The notes below the pieces were generated by a model that had not been told where the DNA came from, searched no databases, and worked only from the letters and a program-made list of their open reading frames with translations. A DNA stretch of 64,000 bases, from positions 434,001 to 498,000 of the forward strand of contig WGNU01000001.1 in the NCBI GenBank assembly GCA_016124385.1, given 5' to 3'. Positions 22,926 through 37,984 of the stretch are shown here, in pieces (positions within the stretch are counted from its first letter, which is position 1; every line of letters starts with the position of its first letter). The translations under genes were made by a program, and so were the position numbers. Source of the DNA: Alphaproteobacteria bacterium. Its GTDB lineage: Bacteria; Pseudomonadota; Alphaproteobacteria; Micropepsales; Micropepsaceae.

Positions 22926-24721
22926 CGGACGGAACTCCAGGGCTTGGACAGCAGCATGGCGGAATTGATGATACCAACCAGCGAGTAGGTTTGGGGGTAA
23001 TTCCCCCACAATTCGCCGGTTCCAATGGCGATGTCTTCCGAGAGCAGCCCCGCGCGGGTGCGATGCGCGAGCATGTTCTCGAAAAATCCGCGTGCCTCCT
23101 CGGCCGCGCCGCTGCGGAACAGCGCCTCGACATACCAGAACGTGCAGATATTGAAGGCGTTCTCGGGCAGGCCGAAATCGTCGGCGACGGTGTAGCGCAT
23201 CACGTGGCGCCCCTTCACGAGGTCGCGCGCGATGGCGGCCATGGTGTTCGCGAAGCGCGGATCGCTCGCGTCGAGAAACCGCACGTCGACGATTTGTAGA
23301 AGGCTCGCATCGAGCGCCGTGCCGCCAAAGGTTGCGGCAAAATGCTGGCCGTCCTCGCGCCAGGCCTGATCGAGGATCCGCTCGCGAATCTCGTCGGCCC
23401 GCGCGCGCCACAGGCGCTGCTTCTCGTTGAGCGACAAATGATCGGCGATATTCGCCAGCCGGTCGCACGCCGCCCAGCACATGACGGCCGAATAGGTGTG
23501 GACCGCCGCCATCGTGCGGAGTTCCCACAAGCCCGCGTCCGGCGTCTCGTGCAGTTGATAGGCGCGCGCGCCGATCCGCTCCAGCGCCTCGAAATCGGCG
23601 ACATCCGCCGGCCGCAGCAGCCGCTCATCGAAAAAGGCGTGCGCAGCCGACAGCACCACTTGTCCGTAGACGTCGTGTTGCTTTTGCAGATAGGCCTCGT
23701 TGCCCGCGCGCACCGGCCCGTTGCCGCGATAGCCGGGCAGGCTCGCGATCGTGCGCTCGTCGAGCCGCGGCTCGCGCCCGATGCCATAGACGGGCTGGAG
23801 CGTCCCGTCGGGCGAGGCGTCGATGAGATTGCGGAGATAGGAGAGATAGCCCTCGAGAATATCCGCCGCGCCCAGCCGCGTCAGCGCCTGGATCACGTAA
23901 TAGGCATCGCGCAGCCAGCAGTAGCGGTAATCCCAATTGCGGCTGGTGCCGGGCGCCTCGGGGATGGAGGTCGTCAGCGCCGCGACGATCGCGCCGGTTT
24001 CCTCGTACCAGCACAGCTTGAGCGCGATCGCGGCGCGGATGACCGCCTCCTGCCATTCGAGCGGCAAGGCGAGGCCCCGCACCCATTCGCGCCAATAGAT
24101 CGCGGTGTTCTCCAGCATCTCGCGCGCGGCGAAGGAAACGTCCCGCGCGAAGCTTTCATCGGGCCCGAGAAAGAACGCGAGCTCGCGCTCGACGCGGAAC
24201 GTCTGCTCGCTGATGAGATAGCTGACCGGCGCGTTGGTCGTCAGCCGCAGCGTCACCGCGTTCGTGACGTACCGGATGTGGTTGGAGCCGGACGTGAGCG
24301 GTGTTGGCGCGGCGCCCCAATCGTTGAGCGGGCGCAGCCGCACCGCGATGCGCGGCGCGCCCGCGAGCGGGCGCACGATCCGCACGAACGCGATCGGGCG
24401 GTACATCCGCCCGTGATGGCGGAAACGCGGCGAGAAATCGAGGATCTCGATCGCCCCGCCCCGCTCGTCGCGCAGGATCGTGCGCAGGATCGCCGTGTTG
24501 CGCAGATAATCCTGTTCGACCGCCGCGCAATCCTCGAGCGCGATGTCCCAGAGGCCCGACGCCCCCGCCTCGTGTCCGGCCGTGTTGTTGAGCAGCGCCC
24601 CGAAACATGGATCGCTGTCCGGCCGGGGCGCGCACGCCCACACGAACCGTCCCATGCGATCGATCAGCGCACTGACATTGCAATTGCCGATGACGGCAAG
24701 GTCGAGCGAGGCTTCGGTCAT
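22922..24721 (-). CDS. GH15 family hydrolase (glucoamylase/trehalase-like)
   Basis: 599 residues of glycoside hydrolase family 15. It has the N-terminal super-sandwich (L-A-V-I-G-N-C-N-V-S-A-L-I-D), the (alpha/alpha)6 core with R-N-W-D-Y-R-Y-C-W-L-R-D-A near 273-285, and G-L-L-S-E-D-I followed by G-x-x-P-Q-T-Y-S-L at the end. Bacterial GH15 proteins of this length include glucoamylases and trehalases. Its position between otsB and otsA favours trehalose or a related glucoside, which is inference. It overlaps otsB by four bases (ATGA) and otsA by three, so all three are probably translationally coupled. Confidence 0.9.
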   Translation of the reverse strand: MTEASLDLAVIGNCNVSALIDRMGRFVWACAPRPDSDPCFGALLNNTAGHEAGASGLWDIALEDCAAVEQDYLRNTAILRTILRDERGGAIEILDFSPRFRHHGRMYRPIAFVRIVRPLAGAPRIAVRLRPLNDWGAAPTPLTSGSNHIRYVTNAVTLRLTTNAPVSYLISEQTFRVERELAFFLGPDESFARDVSFAAREMLENTAIYWREWVRGLALPLEWQEAVIRAAIALKLCWYEETGAIVAALTTSIPEAPGTSRNWDYRYCWLRDAYYVIQALTRLGAADILEGYLSYLRNLIDASPDGTLQPVYGIGREPRLDERTIASLPGYRGNGPVRAGNEAYLQKQHDVYGQVVLSAAHAFFDERLLRPADVADFEALERIGARAYQLHETPDAGLWELRTMAAVHTYSAVMCWAACDRLANIADHLSLNEKQRLWRARADEIRERILDQAWREDGQHFAATFGGTALDASLLQIVDVRFLDASDPRFANTMAAIARDLVKGRHVMRYTVADDFGLPENAFNICTFWYVEALFRSGAAEEARGFFENMLAHRTRAGLLSEDIAIGTGELWGNYPQTYSLVGIINSAMLLSKPWSSVR

Positions 24722-25503
24722 GCGCGGGAGACCTCCGGAAGCCCGGCTGCGAGAAAGCGAAGAACGGCACGGGGATCTTTAAGACCATAGCGCGCAGCAC
24801 TCGCACGCGCAGGCCCGACCAGGATGCCGAAGCCGCCATGCGCGGCGCACGCCTCGAACCCGTGCTCGTCGGTCAGATCATCGCCGATGAAGATGGGCCT
24901 CGCGCCCGCGAAGGGCGGCTCGGCGAGGAACGCGGCGACCGCATCGCCCTTCGTGATGCCAGCGGGCTTTACCTCCAGCACCATGTGGCCGGGCTGAACG
25001 GCGAGCGCGCCTTCGGCCTCCGAGGCAATCGCATCGGCCGCGTGGCGCAGCTCCGGCCCGAGCGATGGCGCGCCGCGATAGTGAAGCGCGAGCGCAAGGC
25101 CCTTATCTTCGAGCAGCAATCCTGCGTGCTGCGCGGCGAGCGCCGAAAGCCGCCCGCGCGCGATCGCAAGCACGTCCGACGCGTCCGCGCGCCGGATCGT
25201 CCCGTCCGCGCCGCGCCGCTCGAGGCCGTGAATCCCCGCCGCGATCCGCGCGGCCTCGCCCAGATGCCGGTCGAGATCGGCGATCATGCGTCCGCTGACG
25301 ATCGCGAGCCGGCCGTTGAGCGCGGTGCGAAGCGCGGTCAACAGCGGCGCGAGGCCGGGATCGAGCGCGATCGCGTCGGGATGCTCGGCGATCGCAACCA
25401 GCGTGCCGTCGAGGTCGAGGAACAGCGCGTCCTCAGAGAGGGTGAGCGGCGGCGGCGCCGGCAGCGCGGGGGAGGGGGGCGAGGAATCGACGCGGCCATC
25501 CAT
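24718..25503 (-). CDS. otsB: trehalose-6-phosphate phosphatase
   Basis: 261-residue HAD-superfamily phosphatase. The nucleophile motif F-L-D-L-D-G-T-L-V has D30 and D32, followed by I-V-S-G-R-M and the late G-D-D-L-T-D-E. V-L-E-V-K-P-A-G-I-T-K-G-D-A is typical of OtsB. It dephosphorylates the OtsA product to trehalose. First gene of the otsB-GH15-otsA operon. ATG 25503 is 72 bases from the modB stop, so transcription from mod cannot be excluded. Trehalose synthesis is often stress-induced, but I see no EcfG-type promoter (GGAAC then GTT) here. Confidence 0.92.
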   Translation of the reverse strand: MDGRVDSSPPSPALPAPPPLTLSEDALFLDLDGTLVAIAEHPDAIALDPGLAPLLTALRTALNGRLAIVSGRMIADLDRHLGEAARIAAGIHGLERRGADGTIRRADASDVLAIARGRLSALAAQHAGLLLEDKGLALALHYRGAPSLGPELRHAADAIASEAEGALAVQPGHMVLEVKPAGITKGDAVAAFLAEPPFAGARPIFIGDDLTDEHGFEACAAHGGFGILVGPARASAARYGLKDPRAVLRFLAAGLPEVSRA

Positions 25504-25575
25504 GACGCTGCCGTTTATGCGGATTTGCCGCCGCGCGTGCAACCGGCGAAGCCTTAACCGCTTAACGCTTTGCGG

Positions 25576-26316
25576 TCAGCCATAGGGAAAGGTGTTGGGC
25601 CGCGGCGTCGGCTGGCCATTCAACCGTCGATAGGCGCGCCGCGAGAGGATCTCAGACGCAATGAGCGCGGCGAGCGCGACGGCGATGGAGATGAGCGTGA
25701 GGCGCAGCACCGCGAGCTCCTCGCCCGGCACTTGCAGCAGCGCGTGGATGGCGTTGGGAATCGTTTGCGTCTCGCCGGGAATGTTCGAGACGAACGTCAC
25801 CGTCGCGCCGAATTCGCCGAGCCCGCGCGCAAACATGAGGATCGCGCCCGCGATGATCCCCGGAAGGCTCAAGGGCAATGTCACGAACAGGAAAACGCGC
25901 CAGGGCGGCGCGCCGAGGCTCGCGGCCGCGCGCTCCATCTCGCGGTCGACCGCTTCGATCGAGAGGCGGATCGCGCGCACCGCGAGCGGCAAGCCCATCA
26001 CGAACGCGGCGAGCGCCGCGCCCGTCCAGCGGAAGGAGAAGGTGAGCCCGAAAACATCATGGAGAAAGGCGCCGGCCGGCCCCTGCCGCCCGAACGCGAT
26101 GAGCAAGAGATAGCCCGTCACGACCGGCGGCATCACGAGCGGCAGATGGATGATGGCATCGAGAATGAACTTGCCGGGAAAGTCGCGCCGCGCCAGCACA
26201 TGCGCGAGCAGGATCGCCGGTGCGAGGCCCGCGAGCGTCGCGACGGTCGCAACGAGAAGGCTGAGCCTCAAGGCCTCCCATTCCAGCGCGCTGAGAGAAA
26301 GGCCCGCCTCGTTCAT
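25576..26316 (-). CDS. modB: molybdate ABC transporter permease
   Basis: 246 residues with about five to six membrane helices and the ABC permease loop E-R-A-A-A-S-L-G-A-P-P-W-R-V-F-L-F-V-T-L-P-L-S-L-P-G-I near residues 127-153, followed by A-R-G-L-G-E-F-G-A-T. That E-F-G-A-T is characteristic of ModB. It overlaps modA by four bases. The ATPase modC, normally next, is missing: the next gene downstream is otsB. Confidence 0.92.
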   Translation of the reverse strand: MNEAGLSLSALEWEALRLSLLVATVATLAGLAPAILLAHVLARRDFPGKFILDAIIHLPLVMPPVVTGYLLLIAFGRQGPAGAFLHDVFGLTFSFRWTGAALAAFVMGLPLAVRAIRLSIEAVDREMERAAASLGAPPWRVFLFVTLPLSLPGIIAGAILMFARGLGEFGATVTFVSNIPGETQTIPNAIHALLQVPGEELAVLRLTLISIAVALAALIASEILSRRAYRRLNGQPTPRPNTFPYG

Positions 26317-27068
26317 GGCACGGGTGTGAAGCCGGCCCGTTCGAAAGCGGCAAAGCCTTCCACGCTGGCGAGATAATCGAGGAGGGCGCCCGCCTGGCCG
26401 TGATCGCTGCCGCTGGTCACCGCGCCCGGATAGACGATCGGGGGATGGAGCGATCCCTCGAACGCGGCGACGACGCGCACGTCCGGCTCGGCCTTGGCAT
26501 CGGTTGCATAGACGATGCCGAGCGGCGCCTCGCCCCGCGCGACGAACGCGAGCGCCGCGCGGACATTGTCGGCCCGCGCGGTCTGCCCCGCGATGCCGTC
26601 CCAGAGGCCGAGCGCGGAGAGCGCGGCCTTGGCGTATTTGCCGGCCGGCACGCCCGCCGGGTCCGCAACCGCCAGATAGCCGCCCGCGAGCGCGGCCTTG
26701 AGGTCGGTGTGCGGGCTGAGCGTCAGCGCGATCGTGCTCGCCTTGGGCGCGATCAGAACGAGCGCGTTGCCGAACAGCACGCGACGCGTTTCCGGCGCGA
26801 TCAACGAGCGCTCGGCGAGATAATCCATCCAGGCTTCGTCGGCCGAAAGGAACAGATCGGCCTCCGCGCCCGCCTCGATCTGCCGCGCCAGCGCCGAGGA
26901 GGCACCGAACGAGATCGCGATGGAAACGTGCTCGCGCGCGCCGAACGCGGCGGCGGCTTCATCGAGCGGGCCCTTCAGGCTGGCCGCCGCGAAGACGAGA
27001 AGATCCTCCGCCTGCGCCGTACCGGTGGCGAGGACGAGGGAGGCGGCAAGGAGGATCCGGCGCAGCAT
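26313..27068 (-). CDS. modA: molybdate-binding periplasmic protein
   Basis: 251 residues with a clear signal peptide (I-L-L-A-A-S-L-V-L-A-T-G-T-A-Q-A). F-A-A-A-S-L-K-G-P-L-D and F-G-A-S-S-A-L-A-R-Q-I contain the two oxyanion-contacting serine regions of ModA. A-D-L-F-L-S-A-D and A-D-P-A-G-V-P-A-G-K-Y follow. It delivers molybdate or tungstate to ModB. ATG 27068 was chosen over an upstream in-frame start because it begins the signal peptide. Confidence 0.92.
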   Translation of the reverse strand: MLRRILLAASLVLATGTAQAEDLLVFAAASLKGPLDEAAAAFGAREHVSIAISFGASSALARQIEAGAEADLFLSADEAWMDYLAERSLIAPETRRVLFGNALVLIAPKASTIALTLSPHTDLKAALAGGYLAVADPAGVPAGKYAKAALSALGLWDGIAGQTARADNVRAALAFVARGEAPLGIVYATDAKAEPDVRVVAAFEGSLHPPIVYPGAVTSGSDHGQAGALLDYLASVEGFAAFERAGFTPVP

Positions 27069-27155
27069 GGGCGACCTTGTGCGTTCACGGCCAAGGGGGC
27101 TGTGTATCACGATTTTTCATGCCGCAGCATGCCGGGCCGGGCGGCCCGCGCCCGC

Positions 27156-28571
27156 TCAGGCGAGCGGGCCCGGCGCCGGCCGCAGCGACAGCACGTGAAA
27201 CCGCCAGACCATCAAGGCGGCGGCGACGATCAGCGCCGCAACGAAGCTGAACCAGATCCCCGCGCCGCCGAGCCCCGCCGGAAACGCGAGCACGACCGAG
27301 AGCGGCAGCCCGATACCCCAATAGGCAAGACCCGCGAACAGCATCGGCACGAACGTGTCCTTGAAGCCGCGCAGCGCTTGCGCCGCCGTCACCTGCAGCG
27401 CGTCGAAGATCTGGAAGAACGCGGCGATCCGCAGGAACACCACGCCGGCTGCGATCGTCTCGGCGTTCTGGGGGTCATCAACGTCGAGGTAGAACCCGAG
27501 GATCGTCTCGGGCATGACGAAGAGGACGAGCGCGCACAACCCCATGAAGAGCCCGCCGACGCCGATACCGGTGAAGCCCGCGCGCCGGGCGCCCGGCGCG
27601 TCCCCGCCGCCCGCCATCAGGCCGACGCGCACGACCGTCGCCATGCCGACACCTAAAGGCACCATGAAGGTGAGCGAGGCGACGTTGACCGCGATCTGGT
27701 GCGCCGCCAGCGCCGCCGCGCTGAAGAGGCCCATCAGGAAGATCGAGACGTTGAAGAACCCGCCCTCGAAGACGAGCGAGGCCGAAACCGGCAGGCCAAG
27801 GCGCAGCACTTCGGCCAGGCGCGGCCAGTCGGGTGTCCAGAAATCGCGCGTGATCCGGTAGCGCCGGAAGGGCTCCGCCAGCGAGAGCCACGCGATGAAG
27901 CCCGCGACGCCCAGGAAATTCGCTGCCGTACTCGCGATCCCCGCGCCCAAAACGCCGAGCGCCGGCGCGCCGAAATGCCCGTAGATGAGCACATAGTTGA
28001 GCGCGATGTTGATCAGCGTGACGCCGATCGCGGCGTAGAGCCCGTGCATCGGCTTGTCGAGGCACGCCGCGAAATTGCGCAGGATCGTCAGCACCAGCGC
28101 GAAAATGAGGCCGGGCGCGAGCGCGAGCGCATAGGGCGCTGCCTCTGCCGCCAAATGAGGCTTCTGGCCGATCAGGAGGAGGAAGGGCTCGGCAAGCGCG
28201 AGCAGGCCGATCATCGGCACGCCGACGAGCGCGACCGCCCACACGCTCATGCGCAAGGTCGCCCGCACGTCCTCGATGTTGTCGCGGTCGGCGCCGAGGC
28301 TCCGCGCGATCAGCGCCGAGACGATGACGGCCGGACCCATCGTGAAGATCCAGCCCATGAAATAGAGCGTGACGCCGAGCGAGGTGGCGGCCAGCGCCTC
28401 CGTGCCCAGCCGGCCGATCATCACGAGGTCGGCGGTGAGCACGGCGAATTGCGCGACCTGCGTCGCGACGAGCGGCCCGGCAAGCTTCAGGAGAGCGCGC
28501 AGTTCCGCGCGCCAGGCTGGCACGTCGAACGGTTGGGGGCCGATGGAGGGAGTGGCGTTGCTGATCGTCAT
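27156..28571 (-). CDS. MATE-family multidrug/organic cation exporter (NorM-like)
   Basis: 471 residues with about twelve hydrophobic segments in two homologous halves, the MATE architecture. Typical are L-A-G-P-L-V-A-T-Q-V-A-Q near 29-40, D-L-V-M-I-G-R-L-G, and the second-half L-G-L-P-V-S-A-S-L-V-F-E-G-G-F-F. MATE proteins export cationic compounds with Na+ or H+. ATG 28571 starts M-T-I-S-N-A-T; the 64 codon-positions upstream are leader. Just upstream lies a terminator that competes with a second hairpin, suggesting attenuation. Confidence 0.9.
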   Translation of the reverse strand: MTISNATPSIGPQPFDVPAWRAELRALLKLAGPLVATQVAQFAVLTADLVMIGRLGTEALAATSLGVTLYFMGWIFTMGPAVIVSALIARSLGADRDNIEDVRATLRMSVWAVALVGVPMIGLLALAEPFLLLIGQKPHLAAEAAPYALALAPGLIFALVLTILRNFAACLDKPMHGLYAAIGVTLINIALNYVLIYGHFGAPALGVLGAGIASTAANFLGVAGFIAWLSLAEPFRRYRITRDFWTPDWPRLAEVLRLGLPVSASLVFEGGFFNVSIFLMGLFSAAALAAHQIAVNVASLTFMVPLGVGMATVVRVGLMAGGGDAPGARRAGFTGIGVGGLFMGLCALVLFVMPETILGFYLDVDDPQNAETIAAGVVFLRIAAFFQIFDALQVTAAQALRGFKDTFVPMLFAGLAYWGIGLPLSVVLAFPAGLGGAGIWFSFVAALIVAAALMVWRFHVLSLRPAPGPLA

Positions 28572-28858
28572 GGGATGGGAACCGAAAGGAAATCGGTCCG
28601 GAGAAGCGTCGCGGCCGGAGGGTGCCGGACACAAAAAACCCTCCGGAGCCGTGGCTCGGGAGGGGCGGTCAGCGGACGCCGCAATGCGTGTGCGCTAGCG
28701 CGAAGCCTCCTCGCGAGCCGGGGGGAACAATGTCGGCGACACGTTCCGTACTGTGATCAGGAAGAAGACTCGCATCGAAGAATCCGGTCTTGCGGAGGAA
28801 AGCGTGAAGCGCCGCGCGCGCCAACGCCCGTGTCTCGTAGGCTGAGGGCTGAAACCTG
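28572..28858. other. leader region between nucleotidyltransferase-like gene and MATE gene
   Basis: About 290 bases containing the two-state hairpin at 28615-28664. A 26-codon frame on the minus strand (starting M-R-V-F-F-L-I-T-V) ends with TAG before the terminator, but it has no Shine-Dalgarno sequence and its residues suggest no amino-acid sensing. Nothing else was recognised. Confidence 0.4.
28615..28664 (-). promoter_or_regulatory. terminator with mutually exclusive hairpin ahead of the MATE gene
   Basis: Terminator: CCCTCC-C-GAGCC and GGCTC-C-GGAGGG (plus-strand arms 28639-28650 and 28653-28664) followed on the minus strand by six U. Competing hairpin: the terminator's 3' arm sequence CCGGAGGGT (28638-28646) can instead pair perfectly over nine bases with ACCCTCCGG (28615-28623), enclosing the U-tract. 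Both cannot form together. This could be an attenuator for the MATE gene, or a simple terminator of the upstream gene with a chance complement. Confidence 0.5.
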
Positions 28859-30019
28859 TCAAGCCGAGAGCGGCTTCTTTGTGACGCGCCGCACAAGCGC
28901 CCGCTCGAGCGCGCGGTCATGGCCGCTCTCGTTGAGCGCGCGATAGGTGAGCCAATAGCGCCGCTCGGCCATCACGATCAGCCAGTCGAGGAGCGCGCGC
29001 TCGCCCAGAAGCCGCCGCGTGAAGGTAAGGCCGTGATGCGCCCAGAGCAGCCAGGGCCGCGGCGCGCTCGGATCCTCGTGCGCGGCGAGCGCGGCGCGCC
29101 CGGACGGCGTGAAGCGCGCGGGGCAGGGGATCTCGATGTCGAAGAGCTGGCGGAAGAGCTCGAGATGAAAGGCGAGCGCGCCGCCAAGGCCGATCTGCTC
29201 GAACCGGCGCGCGATCTCGGGCCAGTCGATCGCATCGCCCTCGCGCGTGACGAGGTCGAGCAGATCGAAATGATCGCGCAGCATCTGGAAGCCCGTCCAG
29301 AATTGCCGCGCGCCGAATTGCGCGTGAAGGATGCTGTGAAGAACGAGATGCGTCGCGCTCGGCACGAGCACGCGCGCCGCGCCGAACGCCATCGGCCGGG
29401 CCTTGGCGATCATCTCGTCGGTCGTCAATCGTCCGCGTACGATCCAATTGAGGGGGCGCTCGTGCAGCTCGATCGGAAAGGTTTGGCCCTCGGCGATGAA
29501 GGAGGGCAGATGATGGTGGCGCAGGCGCGGTGTCTCGCCGTGGGGTTGATAGCCCTGCGCGGTGAGGGCCGCCGTGGCGCGTGTGAGATCGTCCGCGTGG
29601 ACGAGAATGTCGAGATCATTGGAGAGGCGCAGCCGCGCGCGCCCGGCGGGATCGCACGCGAGATAGGCCGCTCCCTTCAGCATCACCGGCACGACGCCTG
29701 CCTGGTTGAGCAGGGCCGAAACGGATTCGAGTTCGCACGCCATTCTCGCGCCCCGCTCGCGCGAGAGCACGCGCACGCCCTCCAGCATCTCGGCGGCGCT
29801 GGGCGGCAGCAGTGCCGGCTGGCTCTCGGCCCGCTCGGCCAACTCGCCGATCACGAAATGGTCGCAGGCCAGCGCGATCAGCGAGTCCCAGTCCTCCGCC
29901 GCGATCGCCGCGAAATCGGGGTTCGGCGCGCGCAGCAGGTCGGCCAGCCAGCGCAGCGCGTCGGGCGCGGCCTCGGGGTCGCCGGAAGGGATCTCGGTGT
30001 CGGGTTGGACGAGGGCCAT
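28859..30019 (-). CDS. nucleotidyltransferase-fold protein (NTP_transf_5 type)
   Basis: 386 residues. A nucleotidyltransferase-like centre is visible: V-M-L-K-G-A-A-Y-L (113-121) followed by R-L-S-N-D-L-D-I-L-V with D135 and D137 as likely metal ligands. The helical C-terminal half has H-L-V-L-H-S-I-L-H. This fits the uncharacterised nucleotidyltransferase family PF14907, members of which occur in some peptide-natural-product clusters. It lies directly downstream of, and on the same strand as, three small-peptide genes, but a strong terminator separates them, so it probably has its own promoter. Substrate unknown. Confidence 0.75.
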   Translation of the reverse strand: MALVQPDTEIPSGDPEAAPDALRWLADLLRAPNPDFAAIAAEDWDSLIALACDHFVIGELAERAESQPALLPPSAAEMLEGVRVLSRERGARMACELESVSALLNQAGVVPVMLKGAAYLACDPAGRARLRLSNDLDILVHADDLTRATAALTAQGYQPHGETPRLRHHHLPSFIAEGQTFPIELHERPLNWIVRGRLTTDEMIAKARPMAFGAARVLVPSATHLVLHSILHAQFGARQFWTGFQMLRDHFDLLDLVTREGDAIDWPEIARRFEQIGLGGALAFHLELFRQLFDIEIPCPARFTPSGRAALAAHEDPSAPRPWLLWAHHGLTFTRRLLGERALLDWLIVMAERRYWLTYRALNESGHDRALERALVRRVTKKPLSA

Positions 30020-30102
30020 GCCTCAATCTGCCACGGGTACCTTAACAATCGGAAACGCGAACGGGGCTGGTCATAAGGGAGGGAAAGGGGTTTCGGGACC
30101 CC

Positions 30103-30146
30103 CCAAAAAGAGAACGCGCGCCCCGGTTCGTGACAGGGGACGCGCG
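30103..30146 (-). terminator. terminator of small-peptide gene A
   Basis: Arms CGCGCGCCCC (30115-30124) and GGGGACGCGCG (30136-30146, one bulge) are followed on the minus strand by TTCTCTTTTT. It ends the transcript of the gene at 30166-30363. Confidence 0.75.
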
Positions 30147-30165
30147 ATTCTGCAGGCCAAATCGC

Positions 30166-30363
30166 CTAGCGATGCTTCGCCGGCTTGTGGTGCTTCGGCT
30201 TGCGGCGCTTCGGCTTGCGGTGCTTCGGCTTCGGGCCTTCGCCGACCGACCGCGCCAAAGCGCGCTCCGCCGACAGCAGCACGATGGCCGCCGGCGCGGA
30301 ATAGGCCGCGATCTTACCAACCCGCTGCAGCGCCTCGCGGCGCGAAACAGATGGCTCGCTCAT
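30166..30363 (-). CDS. small basic peptide A with Tat-like leader and K-P-K repeats
   Basis: 65 residues. Residues 1-40 are a leader with S-R-R-E-A-L, a hydrophobic A-A-Y-S-A-P-A-A-I-V-L-L stretch and A-L-A-R at the end, resembling a twin-arginine signal with cleavage after A-L-A. The tail is extremely basic, built from K-P-K-H-R, K-P-K-R-R, K-P-K-H-H units coded by 15-bp tandem repeats. The leader differs from those of the genes at 30627 and 31119 by only one to three residues, while the tails are unrelated. The 5' region (GAACAGATGCAACGC, later GGCGTTA..GGGGACTC) is shared with gene B. Function unknown; an exported DNA-, RNA- or envelope-binding peptide, or a modified-peptide precursor, are possibilities. 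Confidence 0.8.
   Translation of the reverse strand: MSEPSVSRREALQRVGKIAAYSAPAAIVLLSAERALARSVGEGPKPKHRKPKRRKPKHHKPAKHR
30192..30236. repeat. 15-bp tandem repeat in the tail of peptide A
   Basis: Three units of GCTTCGGCTTGCGG(C/T) at 30192-30206, 30207-30221 and 30222-30236, the last slightly diverged, with a fourth degenerate unit at 30174-30191. Each unit codes five residues of the K-P-K-x-x type on the minus strand. Copy number could change by slippage. Confidence 0.75.
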
Positions 30364-30566
30364 GTTCTTGGAGTCCCCATAACGCCTGTCCGCGACATGC
30401 GGAACAGCCGTCGAGCGTTGCATCTGTTCTTTTGAAAACGCAAGACCGGCAAATGGAGCGGAAGAAAATAAAGGTCTGACGTCGCGCGGCCGCGTCACAT
30501 CAAGTATTTAGGCGAACAAAGCGACATGGTTACTTTCCACAAATCCACGGCGAAGGCGACAACGCC

Positions 30567-30604
30567 AAAAAGGAAAGCGCACCGCCGGGGGCGATGCGCT
30601 TTCC
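30567..30604 (-). terminator. terminator of small-peptide gene B
   Basis: Perfect 10-bp stem GGAAAGCGCA (30572-30581) with TGCGCTTTCC (30595-30604), followed on the minus strand by TTTTT. It ends the gene at 30627-30848 before gene A starts. Confidence 0.85.
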
Positions 30605-30626
30605 GCAACGATGGTGTTGCGATGCC

Positions 30627-30848
30627 TTACTTGACCTTCCGCACGATCACCCGGCCGAGGCCCCGGTGATAGTAGCGGCGATAGCCTGGCGGAACGGTCT
30701 TGCCCGACTTCGTCGGCGCGGGCGCGCTGACGGAGCGCGCGAGCGCCCGCTCGGCCGTCAGCAGCACGATGGCCGCCGGCGCGGAATAGGCCGCGATCTT
30801 ACCAACCCGCTGCAGCGCCTCGCGGCGCGAAACAGATGGCTCGCTCAT
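30627..30848 (-). CDS. small basic peptide B with Tat-like leader
   Basis: 73 residues. The first 40 are identical to peptide A except one S-to-T change (L-L-T-A-E-R-A-L-A-R-S). The tail is unrelated: a proline/threonine stretch, then P-P-G-Y-R-R-Y-Y-H-R-G-L-G-R-V-I-V-R-K-V-K, basic and aromatic. About 95 bases of leader-coding DNA match gene A exactly and the upstream 190 bases are also similar, indicating a recent duplication or gene conversion with tail replacement. It has its own promoter region and terminator. Function unknown. Confidence 0.8.
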   Translation of the reverse strand: MSEPSVSRREALQRVGKIAAYSAPAAIVLLTAERALARSVSAPAPTKSGKTVPPGYRRYYHRGLGRVIVRKVK

Positions 30849-31060
30849 GTTCTTAGAGTCCCCTAACGCCTGCCCGCGACATGCGGCACAGAAGTTTAGC
30901 GTTGCATCTGTTCGTTTGTGTGCGCAAGGGCTGCAAGGCAGCATGAAGAAAATAAAATGCTGACGCCGCGGCCAGGCATCCGGCCAAGTCCTTAGACAAA
31001 CAAAGAGACTGGGTTGCTTTCAACGCGGCCCGGGCGGGCGAAACGCGGACCCGCCGGAAA

Positions 31061-31099
31061 AGCAAACGCGCGCCGGAGCAAGAGGTCCCGGCGCGCGTT
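31061..31099 (-). terminator. terminator of small-peptide gene C
   Basis: Perfect 12-bp stem AACGCGCGCCGG (31065-31076) with CCGGCGCGCGTT (31088-31099), followed on the minus strand by TGCTTTTCC. Confidence 0.75.
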
Positions 31100-31118
31100 G
31101 CGATTGAGATCGTCGGCT

Positions 31119-31322
31119 TTAGTTCCGGCCGCGACGCGACGGCTTACGGAACTTCGGCTTGCGAATCTTCGGCTTACGCTCCTTGCGCGGCTTCTCGCCG
31201 CCCACGGAACGCGCAAGGGCCCGCTCCGCCGTCAGCAGCACGACGGCCGCCGGCGCGGAGTAAGCCGCGATCTTGCCGACGCGCTGAAGCGCTTCGCGGC
31301 GAGAAACGGACTGCTCACTCAT
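31119..31322 (-). CDS. small basic peptide C with Tat-like leader
   Basis: 67 residues from the ATG at 31322 (M-S-E-Q-S-V-S-R-R-E-A-L). An in-frame ATG nine bases earlier abuts the GGGG and is less likely. The leader matches peptides A and B at about 37 of 40 residues although the DNA has diverged by many silent changes, which argues for selection on the leader protein sequence. The tail has K-P-K-I-R, K-P-K-F-R, K-P-S-R-R units like A but is not repetitive in DNA. Upstream DNA is not obviously related to that of A and B. Function unknown. Confidence 0.8.
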   Translation of the reverse strand: MSEQSVSRREALQRVGKIAAYSAPAAVVLLTAERALARSVGGEKPRKERKPKIRKPKFRKPSRRGRN

Positions 31323-31495
31323 GATTTTCATCCCCTACAAACGCCCATTGACGCCGGACGTCCCCGCAAACTGCCCGTGTTGAGAGCATGCGGCAAGGCC
31401 AATGCTAACGATCGGTTAACCGGTTAAAGGCGGGATGTGTCGGGCGGCGGAGAAAGACTATGGGAAGCCATGATTTATATGGTTAATACTTCGTT

Positions 31496-32416
31496 TCATT
31501 GTTCCGCGTCGGATTCGGGCGCGACGCCCGCCCGCTTGGCGACGATGAGGAGCGCCCGGTTCAATTCCGCCCCGAACAAGACGACGATCGCGGAGAAATA
31601 GAAGAACACCATCGCCGCCGCGATGCCGGAAAGGCCGCCATAGATGACGGTGTAATTGGCGTATTGCGCGAGATAGATCGAGAATGCGGCCGCCATGATG
31701 AGCCAGGCGAGGGTGGTGACGAGCACGCCCGGCAGCACGTGGCTGACGCGCCGCTGCCCGCCGGGCAGCATCAGATGCGCGAGCGTCAGCGACAGCCCGA
31801 GCACCACGCCCGCGATCAGATAGCGCGTGACGATGTTCTGGCTGACCGAATCGATCACCACGCCGGCCAAGGGATCGAGCGATTCCCGCGCGCTGCTCCA
31901 GGCGACCGTCGAGGCGACGGTGAAGAAGCCGACGAAAAGCGTGATCGCGATCGCGGCAAGCACGACGGCCAGGCTCTCCAGCCGGCGCCAGATGAAATGT
32001 CGCATTTCGATGACGCCGTAAGCCCGGTTGAGGCCCGTGCGCAGCGATTCAACGCCGTTCGATGCCGACCAGAGCGCGACGAGCGCGCTGAGCGTGAGGA
32101 CGTTCGGGCTGCGGCTTGCGAGCGCTTGGCGCAGCGGTTCGGTGACCGCGCTTGCGATCTCGCTCGGCAGCGCCCCGAACACCAGCGTCACCGCGTCGTC
32201 CGCCGTGTTCTCCACATGGAAGAAGGCCGCGATCGCGAAGAGGAGGATCAGGAACGGAAAGAGCGTCAGCACGGCGGAGAACGCCATCGAGCCCGCGATT
32301 TCCAGGCCGTCGTGATTGATGAGGCGGTTCGTCGCCTCGACCCACGGATTGAGCGCCCGCCGCGTGCGCACGAGGCGGCTGGGCTGGCTCTCGACGGGCG
32401 GACGCATGTCGTTCAT
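31496..32416 (-). CDS. YihY/BrkB-family inner-membrane protein
   Basis: 306 residues with six hydrophobic segments. Family motifs are A-F-S-A-V-L-T-L-F-P-F-L near 46-57, L-W-S-A-S-N-G-V-E-S-L-R-T-G-L-N-R-A-Y, and a late Y-G-G-L-S-G-I-A-A-A-M-V-F-F-Y-F-S-A. The family was once annotated as RNase BN, which is not supported; transport or envelope roles are proposed. ATG 32416 and an in-frame ATG nine bases later are both possible. Diverges from the acyl-CoA dehydrogenase gene. Confidence 0.88.
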   Translation of the reverse strand: MNDMRPPVESQPSRLVRTRRALNPWVEATNRLINHDGLEIAGSMAFSAVLTLFPFLILLFAIAAFFHVENTADDAVTLVFGALPSEIASAVTEPLRQALASRSPNVLTLSALVALWSASNGVESLRTGLNRAYGVIEMRHFIWRRLESLAVVLAAIAITLFVGFFTVASTVAWSSARESLDPLAGVVIDSVSQNIVTRYLIAGVVLGLSLTLAHLMLPGGQRRVSHVLPGVLVTTLAWLIMAAAFSIYLAQYANYTVIYGGLSGIAAAMVFFYFSAIVVLFGAELNRALLIVAKRAGVAPESDAEQ

Positions 32417-32570
32417 GGGGCTGTTAGTTGCCCGTTGCCGCGCGCGCGCGCAAGGGTGGGACCCGATGCCGCGTGGCCCCGCGCCCGCTTCGGCTTCTGG
32501 TTCTGGCCGGTCGCTCTGTTAAGCTTGGGGCACCGCAACTCGACATCAAGAAAATGAGGGAGAAAAGCCG

Positions 32571-33866
32571 ATGGACTTCAACATCCCGGCCGACGTGAAG
32601 GCTCTGCTCGCCAAGATGGACGATTTCATCGAACGCGAAATCAAGCCGCTGGAAAACCAGGACGACAATATCCGCTTCTTCGACCATCGCCGCGAGCATG
32701 CCCGCACCAATTGGGACGCCGACGGCATGCCGCGCGAGGAATGGGAAGAACTGCTGCGCGAGATGCGCCGCCGGGCCGACAAGGCGGGGTTCCTGCGCCT
32801 TGCGCTGCCGAAGGAATATGGCGGCCAGGATATCGGCAATCTCGCGATGGCGATCATCCGCGAGCATCTGGCGGCCAAGGGCTTAGGGCTCCACAACGAC
32901 CTGCAGAACGAGAGCTCGATCGTCGGCAATTTCCCGCAAGTGCTGATGTTCCGCGATTTCGGCACGCCCGCCCAGAAGGACGAGTTCATCAAGGGCATGC
33001 TCGCGGGCACGCATCGCTGCGCCTTCGGCCTCACCGAACCCAAGCACGGCTCGGACGCCTCCTGGATGGAGACTCGCGCGGTGCGCGAGAAGCGCGACGG
33101 CGTCGATGGCTGGCTGATCAACGGCGAGAAATTCTGGAACACGGGCGTCCACATCGCGAATTACGACATGGTCTTCGCGCGCACCGGCGGCAAGGACGGC
33201 GACGCGAAGGGCATCACCTGCTTCCTCGTGCCGATGCAGGCGCCGGGCGTGAAGGTCGAGTTCTACTATTGGACGTTCAACATGCCGACCGACCACGCGC
33301 ATGTGACGTTCAAGAATGTCTGGGTGCCCGACACCGCCGTTTTCGGCCCGCCCGAGGACGGGCTCGTGCTCGCGCGCCATTTCGTGCACGAGAACCGCAT
33401 CCGCCAGGCGGCCTCCTCGCTGGGCGCGGGCGTCTATTGCCTCAACGAGTCGATCGACCACGCGCGCACGCGCAAGCCCTTCGGCAAGCCGCTCGCGGCC
33501 AATCAGGCGATCCAGTTCCCCACCGTCGAATTGATGACGCAGGCCGAAATGCTCCGCCTGCTGATTCAAAAGACCGCCTGGGAGATGGATCAGATGACGG
33601 GGCCGGAGGTGCAGCTCTACGTCTCCGACAAGGTCTCGATGTGCAATTACTGGGGCAATCGCTTCTGCTGCGAGGCGGCCGATTGGGCGATGCAGGTGCA
33701 CGGCGGCATGGGCTATTCGCGCCACAAGCCGTTCGAGCACATCTACCGCCACCACCGCCGCTATCGCATCACCGAGGGCTCCGAACAGATCCAGATGCGC
33801 AACGTCGCGGGCTATATGTTCGGCTATCTCGGCAAGAACCGCCCCCGGCGCGGGGAAGAACACTAG
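32571..33866 (+). CDS. acyl-CoA dehydrogenase family flavoprotein
   Basis: 431 residues, three-domain acyl-CoA dehydrogenase fold. It shows F-G-L-T-E-P-K-H-G-S-D-A (about 157-168), W-L-I-N-G-E-K-F-W-N-T-G, V-H-G-G-M-G-Y-S-R and a final R-I-T-E-G-S-E-Q-I-Q, the region where the FAD and catalytic loop lie. The longer N-terminal and C-terminal parts resemble the ACAD10/11 subgroup. It would oxidise an acyl-CoA to an enoyl-CoA, chain length unknown. ATG 32571 follows GAGGGAGAAAAGCCG. Monocistronic. Confidence 0.92.
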   Translation: MDFNIPADVKALLAKMDDFIEREIKPLENQDDNIRFFDHRREHARTNWDADGMPREEWEELLREMRRRADKAGFLRLALPKEYGGQDIGNLAMAIIREHLAAKGLGLHNDLQNESSIVGNFPQVLMFRDFGTPAQKDEFIKGMLAGTHRCAFGLTEPKHGSDASWMETRAVREKRDGVDGWLINGEKFWNTGVHIANYDMVFARTGGKDGDAKGITCFLVPMQAPGVKVEFYYWTFNMPTDHAHVTFKNVWVPDTAVFGPPEDGLVLARHFVHENRIRQAASSLGAGVYCLNESIDHARTRKPFGKPLAANQAIQFPTVELMTQAEMLRLLIQKTAWEMDQMTGPEVQLYVSDKVSMCNYWGNRFCCEAADWAMQVHGGMGYSRHKPFEHIYRHHRRYRITEGSEQIQMRNVAGYMFGYLGKNRPRRGEEH

Positions 33867-34242
33867 ACGGCGCCAAGGCCTCCAACGTTGTCTCGTCACC
33901 GCACGCGCATGCGGGTGGTCCATGGCCTCACAGGTTGTCCGGCGGCCATGGATCGCCCGCATGGCGCGGGCGATGACGTAAGAAAAACACTGAGTGTCAT
34001 GGCCGGGCCTGTCCCGGCCATCCCTCTTGCCGACCTGCCGAACTTGCCCGGCGATCGGGGCGCGATGGATGGCCGCCACAAGGGCGGCCATGACATGTTC
34101 GATGGCAGGCGGGGCACGTTCCCGCCCGAGGCGGGCCGCCGCACCGCCGCTTAGCCCTGACCTCTGAGGGCCTGACCTCTGAGGGAATGGAAATCATCCA
34201 AGGCGCAGGCTCCCATCGGGATCCCCGAAAGGAAGGTGGGCC
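33867..34242. other. intergenic with R2 repeat
   Basis: About 375 bases with no supported gene. A complete R2 element lies at 33995-34095, and a direct duplication of CTGACCTCTGAGGG occurs at about 34155-34183. The Shine-Dalgarno of the next gene (GGAAGG) is at its right end. Confidence 0.55.
33995..34095. repeat. R2 element (101-bp two-hairpin repeat)
   Basis: TGTCATGGCCGGG...CCCGGCCATCC forms the left hairpin and ATGGATGGCCGCC...GGCGGCCATGACA the right. The right stem has changed to GGCCGCC/GGCGGCC with both arms altered together. Confidence 0.75.
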
Positions 34243-34635
34243 ATGGATCGAACGGCGGAGAATCGCGCGGCTTTGGAGGCCTACGCCAAGGCCTGGCAGT
34301 CCGGCGACATTGCGGGGCTCTTCGCGGCCTACGCGGACGACATCGTCCTTCATTATTTCGGCGAGAGCGATCTGGCCGGCCTTCACACGGGCAAGGACGC
34401 GGCCTTCACCGCGCTGGCCGAGATCGTGCGCCGCACCAACCGCACGCTGGTCGAGATCGTGGACGTGATGGCCGGCCCCAAGCGCGGCGCCATCATCGCG
34501 CGAGAGGAGATGGAGAAGAACGGCGAGGCGCACGAGATCGAGCGCGTGCTCGTCTACCGGCTCGCGGGCGGCAAGATCGCCGAATGCTGGGTCTATGACC
34601 GCGACCAGCGCCTGGTGGACGCGCTCCTCTCTTAG
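34243..34635 (+). CDS. SnoaL/NTF2-like fold protein
   Basis: 130 residues in the NTF2-like alpha+beta cone fold: A-L-E-A-Y-A-K-A-W-Q-S-G-D-I-A-G-L-F-A-A-Y-A-D-D-I-V-L-H helix and strand, and a final V-Y-R-L-A-G-G-K-I-A-E-C-W-V-Y-D-R-D-Q pair of strands. Members include ketosteroid isomerase-like enzymes and binding proteins; the substrate cannot be assigned. GGAAGG precedes ATG 34243. Its TAG overlaps the TAA of the convergent aldo/keto reductase gene. Confidence 0.82.
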   Translation: MDRTAENRAALEAYAKAWQSGDIAGLFAAYADDIVLHYFGESDLAGLHTGKDAAFTALAEIVRRTNRTLVEIVDVMAGPKRGAIIAREEMEKNGEAHEIERVLVYRLAGGKIAECWVYDRDQRLVDALLS

Positions 34636-35636
34636 ACGTGCCCCATCACGCGCTTGGGGCGATAGGGCTCCTCCAGCGCCTTGACGTCGTCGTCCGTGAG
34701 CTGAAGATCGAGCGCCGCCGCCGCGTCCTCCAGATGTCCGGGCTTCGACGCGCCGACGATGGGAGCCGTAACGCCCGGCTTCTGTAAAAGCCACGCGAGC
34801 GCCACCTGCGCGTTCGGGCGCCCAAGGCGCTGCGCCACCTGCCGCACGCGCTCGACGATCGCGAAATCCTGCTCGCGGTAATAAAGGAGATGCGCGAACT
34901 CGTCCGTCCCCGCGCGCGAGGTTTCAGCGTTCGCCCCCGCGCCGGATTTGGGATTGTCGCCCGCCTTGCGGTTGCCCGCCAGGAACCCGCGCGCGAGCGG
35001 GCTCCAGGGAATGATGCCCACGCCCTCCGAGAGGCAGAGCGGCACCATCTCGCGCTCCTCCTCGCGGTAGAGGAGATTGTAGTGCGGCTGCATCGAGACG
35101 AACCGCGCGAGGCCGCCCGCCTTCTGCAGCGAAAGCATCTTCATGAACTGCCAGGCATGCATGGAGGAGGCGCCCACATAGAGCGCCTTGCCGGCCTTGA
35201 CGACGTCGCTGAGCGCTTCGATCGTTTCCTCCATCGGCGTGTCGTAGTCGAAGCGATGGATCTGATAGAGATCGATATAGTCCGTCCCCAGACGTTTCAG
35301 GCTCGCGTCCACCGCCTCCATGATGTGCTTTCGCGAGAGGCCGCGATTGTTCGGGTCCTTGCCCATCGGGTTGTAGACCTTGGTCGCGATGACGATCTCG
35401 TGGCGCTTGGCCATGTCCTTGAGCGCGCGGCCAGTCACTTCTTCGCTCGCGCCCAGCGAATACATATCCGCCGTGTCGAAGAAATTGATGCCCAGATCGA
35501 GCGCGGATTTGAAGAACGGCCGCGCCGCCGCCTCGTCCAGCACCCAGTCGCGCCATTTCGAGCCGCCATAGGTCATGCAGCCGAGACAGAGCCGCGAGAC
35601 TTTGAGGCCGGTCGAGCCGAGGCGGACATAGTTCAT
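34632..35636 (-). CDS. aldo/keto reductase
   Basis: 334-residue (beta/alpha)8 aldo/keto reductase. It has the catalytic D-T-A-D-M-Y tyrosine-aspartate region (about 51-56), A-T-K-V-Y-N lysine and Y-Q-I-H-R-F histidine near 120-125, and the C-terminal V-G-A-S-K-P-G-H-L-E-D NADPH phosphate-binding region. It resembles the YajO/Tas group acting on small aldehydes. The ATG at 35636 begins M-N-Y-V-R-L-G-S-T-G-L, the family start; the longer upstream frame has no such character. Confidence 0.92.
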   Translation of the reverse strand: MNYVRLGSTGLKVSRLCLGCMTYGGSKWRDWVLDEAAARPFFKSALDLGINFFDTADMYSLGASEEVTGRALKDMAKRHEIVIATKVYNPMGKDPNNRGLSRKHIMEAVDASLKRLGTDYIDLYQIHRFDYDTPMEETIEALSDVVKAGKALYVGASSMHAWQFMKMLSLQKAGGLARFVSMQPHYNLLYREEEREMVPLCLSEGVGIIPWSPLARGFLAGNRKAGDNPKSGAGANAETSRAGTDEFAHLLYYREQDFAIVERVRQVAQRLGRPNAQVALAWLLQKPGVTAPIVGASKPGHLEDAAAALDLQLTDDDVKALEEPYRPKRVMGHV

Positions 35637-35781
35637 GGGTATGGCTCCGCGAAATTGGGATGCAGCGCGCAGTATAGCGCGGCCCTCGCGTTCCGTCGCA
35701 TCGCGGCGATCGCGCCCGCCGGTTGCAAATTCGCGCCCGCCGTCGCACGGTCTGGTCTCAACGACAAGAGCGAAACCGCCA

Positions 35782-36282
35782 ATGGCGCCTGACCCCAAAA
35801 CGCCGGCTGAACAGCCCTCAAATCCCTTCGGATCGGACGAACGCGAGATCGACGCGCCGACGCTGCCCGGCAGCATCGCGCTGCTGGAATTCTGGCGCGC
35901 GAAAGTGGCCGCGAGCGGCGCGATGCGCCGCGGCGATTTCCCTGCGCGCGAGATCGCGGCGCTTCTGCCTTGGCTCATCGTCTATGAACCGGTCGACGGC
36001 GGCAGCGATTGCGTTTTGCGGTTGATCGGCACGGGTCTCGTGGAGCGCTACGGCGCCGATTTTACCGGGCGTCGCCTCGGTGAGCTGATGACGCCGGAGT
36101 CTTTTAAGACAGCGATGGCGCGCCTGACGGCCGTGACCGAAACACAAATGCCGCGCTTTACGTCCGGGCGGCTGATTGGCCTAGACCGTGACTTCATCGT
36201 CTTTGAAATCGTTGTCCTGCCGCTGCTGGCGCCGGATGGCGTCGGCAAGTGGGTGCTGGGCGGCATGTTCCTGAAAGGCTGA
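35782..36282 (+). CDS. PAS-domain protein (PAS_5 type)
   Basis: 166 residues. The central and C-terminal part resembles the PAS_5 family (PF07310) common in this class: F-W-R-A-K, R-x-D-F-P-A-R-E-I, L-P-W-L-I-V-Y-E-P-V-D, R-L-I-G-T-G-L-V-E-R-Y-G-x-D-F-T-G-R-R-L, and a final L-P-L-L-A-P-D-G. There is no output domain, so its signalling role is unknown. It lies seven bases before the GDPD gene and is likely cotranscribed. Confidence 0.8.
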   Translation: MAPDPKTPAEQPSNPFGSDEREIDAPTLPGSIALLEFWRAKVAASGAMRRGDFPAREIAALLPWLIVYEPVDGGSDCVLRLIGTGLVERYGADFTGRRLGELMTPESFKTAMARLTAVTETQMPRFTSGRLIGLDRDFIVFEIVVLPLLAPDGVGKWVLGGMFLKG

Positions 36283-36289
36283 GGCGCCC

Positions 36290-37261
36290 ATGGTGTCCGC
36301 GCCGTGCCCAAGCGTTGCCGTCATCGCGCATCGCGGCGGCGCGGGGCTCTGGCCGGAGAACACGGCCGAGGCTTTCGCCAACGCCTTCGCCATGGGGGCC
36401 GATGGCGCCGAGCTCGACGTTCACCTCGCGCGCGACAGCACGTTGGTGGTCTTTCACGACGAGACGCTGAAGCCCGAGATCGTGCGCGATGGCGCGGGGG
36501 CGTGGCTGACCGCGCGGGGCCCGCGCCTTTCGGCTCTCACCTATGACGAGCTCGCTGCCTTCGATGTCGGCCGCCTGAAGCCCGGCACGGCTTACGCGGC
36601 GCGCCACCCCGAGCAGCGCCCGATCGACGGCGCGCGCATTCCCCGCCTGGACGACGTGATCGCCCTCGCCAAGGAGGCGAAGGGCGCGCCGCGCCTCTGG
36701 ATCGAACTGAAGACGCCGCTCTTGGGCGCGGAGGGCCTCGAGGCGCCCGCGCCGCTCACCGAGGCGGTGATCGCGTGCCTGAGGCGGACCGATTTCATCG
36801 ACCGCGCGACGCTGATCGCCTTTGACTGGCAGTGCCTCGCGCTCGCGCGGCGCCTCGAGCCCGCGATCAAGACGCGCGCGACCACCCTCCCGCAGCGCTG
36901 GTTCGGGCCCGATCCCGTACCGCCCGAGCACGGCCCCCCGCCGGCCCCCGCGCTCGCCGAATTGCGCCGCCACGCCGCGGCCGGCGCGCCCTGGGAGGCG
37001 GGCTGCCATCCCCGCGATCACGGCGGGCTCATCGGCGCGGTCGCGGCCCTGGGGGTCGATGGCTGGTTTCCCTTCCACCCGGACCTGACGAACGAAAGCG
37101 CCGCCGAGGCGAAGGCCCGTGGCCTCAGCCTTGCGGCGTGGACGGTCGATGCGCCTGAGGAGATGCGCCGGCTGCTCCCGCTCGGCCTCGATGCGATCTG
37201 CACCGACCGGCCGGACCGCCTGCTCGCGCTCCTGGGCGCGGCGCGTCGCGGACGGGCGTAG
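36290..37261 (+). CDS. glycerophosphodiester phosphodiesterase
   Basis: 323 residues, GDPD family TIM barrel. It carries the signature A-H-R-G-G-A-G-L-W-P-E-N-T (13-25), E-L-D-V-H (41-45), F-H-D-E-T-L and I-E-L-K-T. The two catalytic histidines and the metal-binding glutamate, aspartate and second glutamate are therefore present. It hydrolyses glycerophosphodiesters to glycerol-3-phosphate and an alcohol. No signal peptide, so probably cytoplasmic. Confidence 0.92.
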   Translation: MVSAPCPSVAVIAHRGGAGLWPENTAEAFANAFAMGADGAELDVHLARDSTLVVFHDETLKPEIVRDGAGAWLTARGPRLSALTYDELAAFDVGRLKPGTAYAARHPEQRPIDGARIPRLDDVIALAKEAKGAPRLWIELKTPLLGAEGLEAPAPLTEAVIACLRRTDFIDRATLIAFDWQCLALARRLEPAIKTRATTLPQRWFGPDPVPPEHGPPPAPALAELRRHAAAGAPWEAGCHPRDHGGLIGAVAALGVDGWFPFHPDLTNESAAEAKARGLSLAAWTVDAPEEMRRLLPLGLDAICTDRPDRLLALLGAARRGRA

Positions 37262-37390
37262 CATGTACCCTCCCCCTGAGCGTGGAGCGCCCATCCCTCC
37301 AGCCAGTTTCACTGGGCGCGAATTTACCCCTGCCTCAGTTCCGCCACACCCTCGGTTAGAATAGGGGGATTGGGTCGGTTGGGGTTTGCA

Positions 37391-37981
37391 ATGGACGCGA
37401 TGAGGGCGGCAACGCTCGGGCTGGTGGCGGTATTGGGTCTCTCGGGCTGCGCGCGGTGGGTGCTGCCGTCGGAATCCCAATCGCGCGCGACGCAATTCGA
37501 AACCTACGAGACGGCCGAGGCCGCCTATGCGCGCGTCGCGCCCTTCCAGACGACGACCGCCGATCTGCGCGCGATGGAAATCGCGCCCGGCAAGACGCCC
37601 AATCTGCGCGTCGCCAATTACCTCGAGGTCATGCAGCGCTTCATGCCGCAGGAGACCGTGCGGCTGAAGGACCTCGACCCGGCGGTTCAGGCCTGCATCA
37701 ACGCGCGCGATGCGTGCAAGGGCTGGATCCTCCCGCTCGAGCGCATGGACAAGGAGCGTGTCGGCGACGTCTCGCTCGACCTGCTCGGCATCGAGCGCGA
37801 GACGCGCTCATCGGGCTGGCGCGCGGAGATGGTGCTACTGCTGACCGACGACGTCGTCATTTACAAGTTGTGGTCGGGCACGCCGAACGTGATCGAAACC
37901 GCCCGCGAGACGAAGCCGCTCGGTCCGTTGCAGGATCTCTCCGGCACCGCCGGCAATGCGGTCAAGAACGCGATCCAATAA
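37391..37981 (+). CDS. predicted lipoprotein of unknown function
   Basis: 196 residues. The N-terminus has a lipoprotein signal: a hydrophobic A-T-L-G-L-V-A-V-L-G segment and L-G-L-S-G-C lipobox. The remainder is soluble with W-I-L-P-L-E-R-M and V-L-L-L-T-D-D-V-V-I-Y-K-L-W-S-G-T-P-N-V-I-E-T. I do not recognise the family. ATG 37391 was preferred to an in-frame ATG at 37370 because it puts the hydrophobic segment nearer the start. It converges with the glycosyltransferase gene three bases later. Confidence 0.7.
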   Translation: MDAMRAATLGLVAVLGLSGCARWVLPSESQSRATQFETYETAEAAYARVAPFQTTTADLRAMEIAPGKTPNLRVANYLEVMQRFMPQETVRLKDLDPAVQACINARDACKGWILPLERMDKERVGDVSLDLLGIERETRSSGWRAEMVLLLTDDVVIYKLWSGTPNVIETARETKPLGPLQDLSGTAGNAVKNAIQ

Positions 37982-37984
37982 CAC

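Follow-up and report, generated by a model that had tools for sequence, protein, structure and literature searches.

Putative RiPP-like precursor peptides with a Tat-like leader and variable tails in a Micropepsaceae genome

What purpose is served by small peptides that have virtually the same leader but end in different tails? This question is raised by three adjacent genes (A, B and C) of an alphaproteobacterium affiliated with the Micropepsaceae. The window, i.e., the whole stretch of DNA analyzed, comprises 64,000 nucleotides of contig WGNU01000001.1, and all coordinates refer to it. A preliminary description of this DNA had placed three same-strand ORFs between positions 30166 and 31322, and they are present at exactly these coordinates. 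The relevant features are as follows:

28859–30019 (−): PF14907 NTP_transf_5 gene; 386 aa; LKG...R...DxD motif; member of a peptide-associated clade
30111–30151 (−): GC-rich hairpin with T-run between gene A and NTP_transf_5; possible terminator; z = −1.6, weak; missed by the terminator scan
30166–30363 (−): gene A; 65 aa; precursor-like; leader 1–37; predicted mature peptide RSVGEG + (RKPKx)n; charge +12
30247–30249 (−): Ser39 codon of gene A; residue 2 after the predicted ALA cut; candidate phospho-acceptor
30572–30604 (−): terminator-like hairpin 3' of gene B; 15 pairs followed by TTTTT; z = −5.1
30627–30848 (−): gene B; 73 aa; leader like that of A; unrelated basic tail RSVSAPAPTKSGKTVPPGYRRYYHRGLGRVIVRKVK; charge +10
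30732–30734 (−): Ser39 codon of gene B, equivalent to that of A
31065–31101 (−): GC-rich hairpin with T-run 3' of gene C; possible terminator; z = −1.4, weak
31119–31322 (−): gene C; 67 aa; older leader copy (dS ~0.7 to A and B); RKPK-repeat tail homologous to that of A; charge +13
31206–31208 (−): Ser39 codon of gene C, equivalent to that of A

Leader and tails of the three peptides

A, B and C are the only copies in their own genome (2.43 Mb assembly, 74 % complete). The ThrRS of this genome most resembles alphaproteobacterial ones of the plasmid collection. The hairpins following each of the three genes indicate that A, B and C are perhaps transcribed separately and that NTP_transf_5 may not be co-transcribed with them. 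Genes A and B have their upstream DNA in common, which is absent from C with its different upstream region.

Across residues 1–40, the leaders are 93–98 % identical to that of A. Compared to A, the leader of C carries 17 synonymous and 4 non-synonymous differences (dS 0.77, dN 0.05), compared to B 16 and 2 (dS 0.69, dN 0.02), while A and B differ by 6 synonymous and 2 non-synonymous substitutions (dS 0.19, dN 0.02). The earlier claim that the leader DNA of C deviates from that of A and B at many silent sites is thus borne out. The resulting dN/dS of ~0.04–0.07 (C versus A/B) contrasts with ~0.9 in the tails of A and C (dN 0.48, dS 0.53); these are small numbers of substitutions, though the difference between leader and tail is plain. 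Since silent changes by far outnumber replacements, the leader protein is under strong purifying selection, and the substitution pattern provides strong evidence of translation. Given that long ORFs often arise by chance at the 67 % GC of the window, such short ORFs could in principle be spurious or represent an untranslated DNA repeat; the ~15–17 silent versus 2–4 replacement changes in the leader already contradict this explanation, and the fact that its core recurs in other phyla renders it highly improbable.

All three tails are basic as described previously, with net charges of +12 (A), +10 (B) and +13 (C) after a cut at Ala37. Of the three supposedly unrelated tails, only that of B proved to be so (1601 of 2000 shuffles align as well to the tail of A). 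A and C have homologous tails, with identity at 14 of 23 aligned positions (a score reached by 0 of 2000 shuffles); both contain RKPK(x) pentads in series, matched at the DNA level by a 15-nt tandem repeat in either gene. Leader and upstream region therefore group A with B, but the tails group A with C, and a tail seems to have been exchanged among the three genes. Either the tail of B was replaced after duplication of A and B, or gene conversion between A and B affected the leader DNA; by both routes, leader and tail would evolve as separate modules.

The Tat-like anatomy proposed for the leader holds for all three peptides: an SRREAL motif (SRRxxL) is followed by a hydrophobic stretch and an AxA site (ALA|RS). 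As in ordinary Tat signal peptides, a Gly is positioned seven residues past the second Arg; unlike these, the leaders of the window family contain an additional conserved Lys/Arg and a Pro. None of the curated Tat signal models of Pfam and NCBIfam matches the leader at E values up to 1, and a 34-residue leader profile gave matches at E ≤ 0.002 in no more than 10 of 337 genomes, so this profile does not merely detect Tat signals. The segment Y21-S-A-P24-A-A fits the motif [Y/W]xxPx[L/V/I/F/A] bound by lasso-type RREs (PMC13381572). The previous view of the leader as a single unbroken block of 40 residues does not agree with the predicted cut after Ala37, which leaves Ser39 in the mature peptide.

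A scattered peptide family and its partner enzymes

A profile built from the three sequences yielded no real homologue in 95 genomes belonging to the family or in 384 further genomes sampled across the class; the weak matches seen within family and order were dismissed on reading as being due to chance. Likewise, scanning 84,980 species, IMG/VR and plasmids for the exact peptides was without result because the leader has diverged. The degenerate DNA pattern RRx[AFVS]LxxxGKxAx[YF]xAP produced no further match in the 384 class genomes and 18 matches in the 84,980 species. Twelve of the latter are small ORFs of the same layout with other tails, originating from Accumulibacter (6 contigs), Contendobacter (2), Desulfomonile, Acidobacteria, Nitrospinota and a Hyphomicrobiales MAG (1 each); matches L098, L101, L102, L105, L110 and L114 were rejected on reading. 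With GK, Y/F and AP fixed in the pattern, these residues are partly selected for. For this reason, a profile of 15 leaders (A5) was subsequently used, which detected more members in the class and phylum samples, including several alphaproteobacteria; its matches L125, L127 and L128 were rejected on reading.

The family as a whole has the leader core RRxxLxxxGKxAxYxAP, with V or A in place of Y in many alphaproteobacterial members, short variable tails and up to four copies per genome. Genomes of group g272 contain two to four copies each, with leaders ~80–90 % identical and tails ranging from clearly similar to unrelated. The leader search suggested at the outset thus revealed relatives in distant bacteria that keep the leader and change the tail. 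Since peptides and PF14907 neighbour are missing from the sampled relatives (no close match to the latter in 30 relatives searched, including the sole other genome of the genus), the locus looks accessory. No Pfam or NCBIfam model matches the tested family members at its cut-off; the initial statement that no known family fits therefore stands for curated libraries, although a system of closely similar function has been published (PMC13381572). No prior description of these peptides was found in the open-access literature (subscription papers and most preprints being outside the scope of this search), and the peptides represent an undescribed, widely scattered family.

Many members are neither cationic nor long: some tails are rich in Gly and Asn, others comprise 4–10 residues, and Accumulibacter members possess only 4–11 residues beyond the AxA site. 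This bears on a function of A–C as cationic, bacteriocin-like antimicrobial peptides, the three tails of which would have different targets. Small size, positive charge, diversifying tails behind a constant export leader and the patchy distribution would agree with such a role; many relatives are, however, not cationic and too short, and no immunity gene, transporter or peptidase is seen beside the genes in the window or in the related locus L165 (see below), rendering an antimicrobial function improbable.

A second tail motif, GNNGxGNGxxDGxPxxxx, often with Arg at the end, is common to many members from different alphaproteobacterial genomes (L132–L144, L074, L075, L122, L123) and constitutes a distinct core-peptide type. 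Furthermore, a small RR-leader protein with a long tail of KPSKE pentad repeats was observed (L126/L159, on contig G368:C103; G368 has the same family code as G153), and no kinase, PqqD or PF14907 gene was recognised on its 12.8 kb contig.

Most family peptides adjoin a gene for a ~400-aa PqqD-HprK fusion protein (domains confirmed by Pfam and NCBIfam), and often a PF14907 gene as well; gene calls outside the window are those of the present analysis. The loci are distributed as follows:

PqqD-HprK fusion present: L097 (read by eye), L099, L100, L103, L106, L108, L109, L111, L113, L074, L075, L146, L148, L153, L155
No fusion within several kb: L104, L145, L147, L149–L152, L154, L156–L158

In genomes G651, G667 and G623, another copy of the peptide does adjoin the fusion; around members such as L104, L151 and L152, several kb are devoid of any of the enzyme genes. 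The P-loop, one His, one Asp and one Lys are invariant in the fusion proteins, the predicted structure of which resembles those of HprK and PEPCK. The kinase and PqqD domains are related to the HPr-rel-A system of NCBIfam (TIGR04352 HprK_rel_A, TIGR04353 PqqD_rel_X), but with 53–91 bits, the kinases encoded in the peptide loci fall well short of the family cut-off of 200 bits, and no model covers the peptides. The presence of RiPP-type enzymes in the neighbourhood of family members favours the original idea of precursor peptides.

Four RmlA–D-like genes for dTDP-rhamnose synthesis (assigned by eye) adjoin PF14907 in two loci of g272 (L146:3026–6590, L148:2837–6383), representing a possible source of a sugar donor for peptide modification. 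Two Accumulibacter peptide loci are adjoined by large ORFs with similar starts (L103:2–4096 and L097:2–1939, both on the minus strand); the former encodes 1365 aa with SdrD_B and GEVED domains and looks like a surface protein.

The NTP_transf_5 protein encoded next to gene A (PF14907 match with E 1.8e-42) retains the LKG...R...DxD motif that is invariant among eight relatives. Its predicted structure (pLDDT 74) is nucleotidyltransferase-like, with distant matches to MenT1 and ANT(2'')-Ia and a weaker one to FKRP. Among 33 PF14907 domains placed in a tree, it belongs to a clade of 11 members (SH-aLRT 93), 10 of which, the window protein included, are peptide-associated; clustering of this label was as low in 0 of 500 shuffles. 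The eleventh member (G153) had at first been labelled negative when only 1.5 kb around it was fetched. The full locus (L165) harbours two tandem RR-leader peptides with basic tails as well as discrete genes for a 286-aa HprK-type kinase, an 89-aa PqqD protein and PF14907. The two leaders are nearly identical (MSxESNKTPKSDGLSRRDALARLGLAATVAYAAPTLLQLKGxSARSSGG), the basic tails differ, and no peptidase or exporter was recognised by eye among the ORFs. L165 is thus close to the arrangement in the window and additionally contains the enzymes missing there.

The notion that every PF14907 gene is accompanied by such peptides was discarded, since among 20 loci with wider surroundings only L074, L075 and, weakly, L080 have them. 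Small RR peptides near PF14907 in L044 and L080 match more loosely, their NTP proteins fall outside the clade, and they are not considered close kin.

In the own assembly (74 % complete), neither a PqqD-HprK fusion nor a non-canonical PqqD or HprK-related kinase was found; the PqqD and HprK matches obtained were rejected as partners, being the PqqD of the PQQ cluster and an ordinary, truncated HprK. If the complete genome also lacked kinase and RRE, A–C would be orphaned or act unmodified. Accordingly, A–C might instead be basic peptides exported via Tat without any modification, with polyanions (LPS, capsule, DNA) of the periplasm or the cell exterior as binding partners and no involvement of the adjoining NTP_transf_5 in this genome. 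The strongly basic Lys/Arg/Pro tails, the missing enzymes and the hairpins separating A–C from NTP_transf_5 are in line with this explanation. It is nevertheless rather unlikely in view of the family-wide link to RRE, HprK and NTP genes, the clade placement of the window NTP_transf_5, and the Gly/Asn-rich or very short tails of other members, according to which basicity is no family feature.

Two further observations were made in the window. An AAA ATPase-like ORF at 6208–7815 (MKVKRIKAHQFKRFADLTVREVPESAKLVMLAGPNGSGKSS...) has a third-position GC of 0.50 compared to the usual ~0.87 and was probably acquired recently. A gene pair for a ModA/ModB-like periplasmic binding protein and permease (25576–27110) is located downstream of a MATE exporter gene.

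Proposed maturation and relation to known systems

A, B and C are probably precursors of a RiPP-like system, in which a leader with the roles of both RRE tag and Tat signal is combined with phosphorylation, a PF14907-dependent addition and export. The YxxP segment of the leader with its flanks (RRxxLxxxGKxAxYxAP) would be recognised by a PqqD-type RiPP recognition domain, upon which an HprK-like kinase could phosphorylate Ser39 (mature position 2) in the cytoplasm, and the adjoining PF14907 nucleotidyltransferase may add a sugar, sugar-phosphate or nucleotide. The same leader would then function as Tat signal for export of the modified peptide, and an ordinary signal peptidase is predicted to cut after Ala37 (ALA|RS). 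The tails would be free to change or to be exchanged and may confer specificity on each mature cationic peptide of 28–36 residues. Such a sequence of cytoplasmic modification, Tat export and cleavage by signal peptidase would account for the lack of a recognisable dedicated peptidase or exporter in the loci read closely.

The residue proposed as phospho-acceptor is conspicuous across the family: with cut sites set by eye, Ser occupies position +2 after the cut in 20 of 31 members (3.1 expected) and occurs within +2 to +4 in 26 of 31. Together with the conserved AxA site, this enrichment points to a cleavage that leaves the mature peptide with a defined N-terminus. It also speaks against a function of the leader itself, as a small membrane-anchored peptide with dispensable, drifting tails. 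That the leader is the only conserved part and that some members have tails of merely 4–5 residues would fit such a peptide, but A and C keep the repeat pattern in their tails, and this explanation is considered very doubtful.

Two known systems resemble the maturation proposed for A–C. In linear polyphosphorylated peptides (LPPs), stated to be restricted to Bacillota, an HprK-like kinase (LppK) phosphorylates Ser3 of the core and a signal-peptidase-like enzyme removes the leader (Popov et al. 2026, published May 2026; PMC13381572). Corresponding features are loci with one to three precursors, the N-termini of which are conserved while the C-termini vary strongly (as in A–C), a YxxP leader motif, an NTP transferase (in the window encoded beside gene A), absence of a macrolactam cyclase, and, as predicted for the window family, leader removal by a signal-peptidase-like enzyme; a PqqD-type RRE and an HprK-like kinase are encoded beside relatives of A–C. 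Ser39 would be suitably placed to serve as a polyphosphorylated core Ser like that of LPPs. In contrast, of the full LPP motif YxxPxVLxHQxIxFETxxS the window leader has only YxxPx[A/V] (Y21..P24) without HQxIxFET, and is Tat-like; LPPs use a discrete RRE, whereas RRE and kinase are usually fused in the window family (discrete in L165); and the dedicated SipW-like peptidase and MsbA-like exporter of LPPs are seen neither among the Pfam-examined neighbours in the window nor, by eye, among the ORFs of L165.

Phosphorylated and phosphoglycosylated lasso peptides (paeninodin, pseudomycoidin) likewise have the pair of HprK-like kinase and nucleotidyltransferase, the [Y/W]xxP motif and a PqqD-type RRE. 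In case of pseudomycoidin, PsmK phosphorylates a Ser, to which the nucleotidyltransferase PsmN then adds hexoses. They differ in that no lasso cyclase or B2 protease is encoded beside the window-family genes (none among the Pfam-examined flanking genes at 24718–39993 of the window), and the Ser is located near the mature N-terminus rather than at the C-terminus. By analogy, the A–C system appears to work like the tailoring group of LPPs and phosphorylated lasso peptides, without being an LPP as judged from full leader motif, peptidase and exporter; it is best read as a putative diderm counterpart of the Bacillota LPPs.

A more far-reaching proposition is advanced tentatively, and with less confidence than the precursor role of A–C: the peptides may constitute a cross-phylum diderm family of linear, RiPP-like phosphopeptides or phosphoglycopeptides, in which the leader is both RRE tag and Tat signal. 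Cytoplasmic modification would thereby be coupled to export with no need for a dedicated transporter or peptidase, and a single set of enzymes would act on several precursors whose tails are exchangeable. The Tat system carries folded or cofactor-loaded proteins; a dual RRE-tag/Tat leader would therefore explain how Gram-negative bacteria can export peptides modified in the cytoplasm without a dedicated transporter. The precursors were missed by the curated protein libraries used, and the leader profile from this analysis can find more of them. If the proposition is true, phosphopeptide RiPPs, reported only in Bacillota, would extend to several diderm phyla, and PF14907 proteins would gain a defined substrate class.
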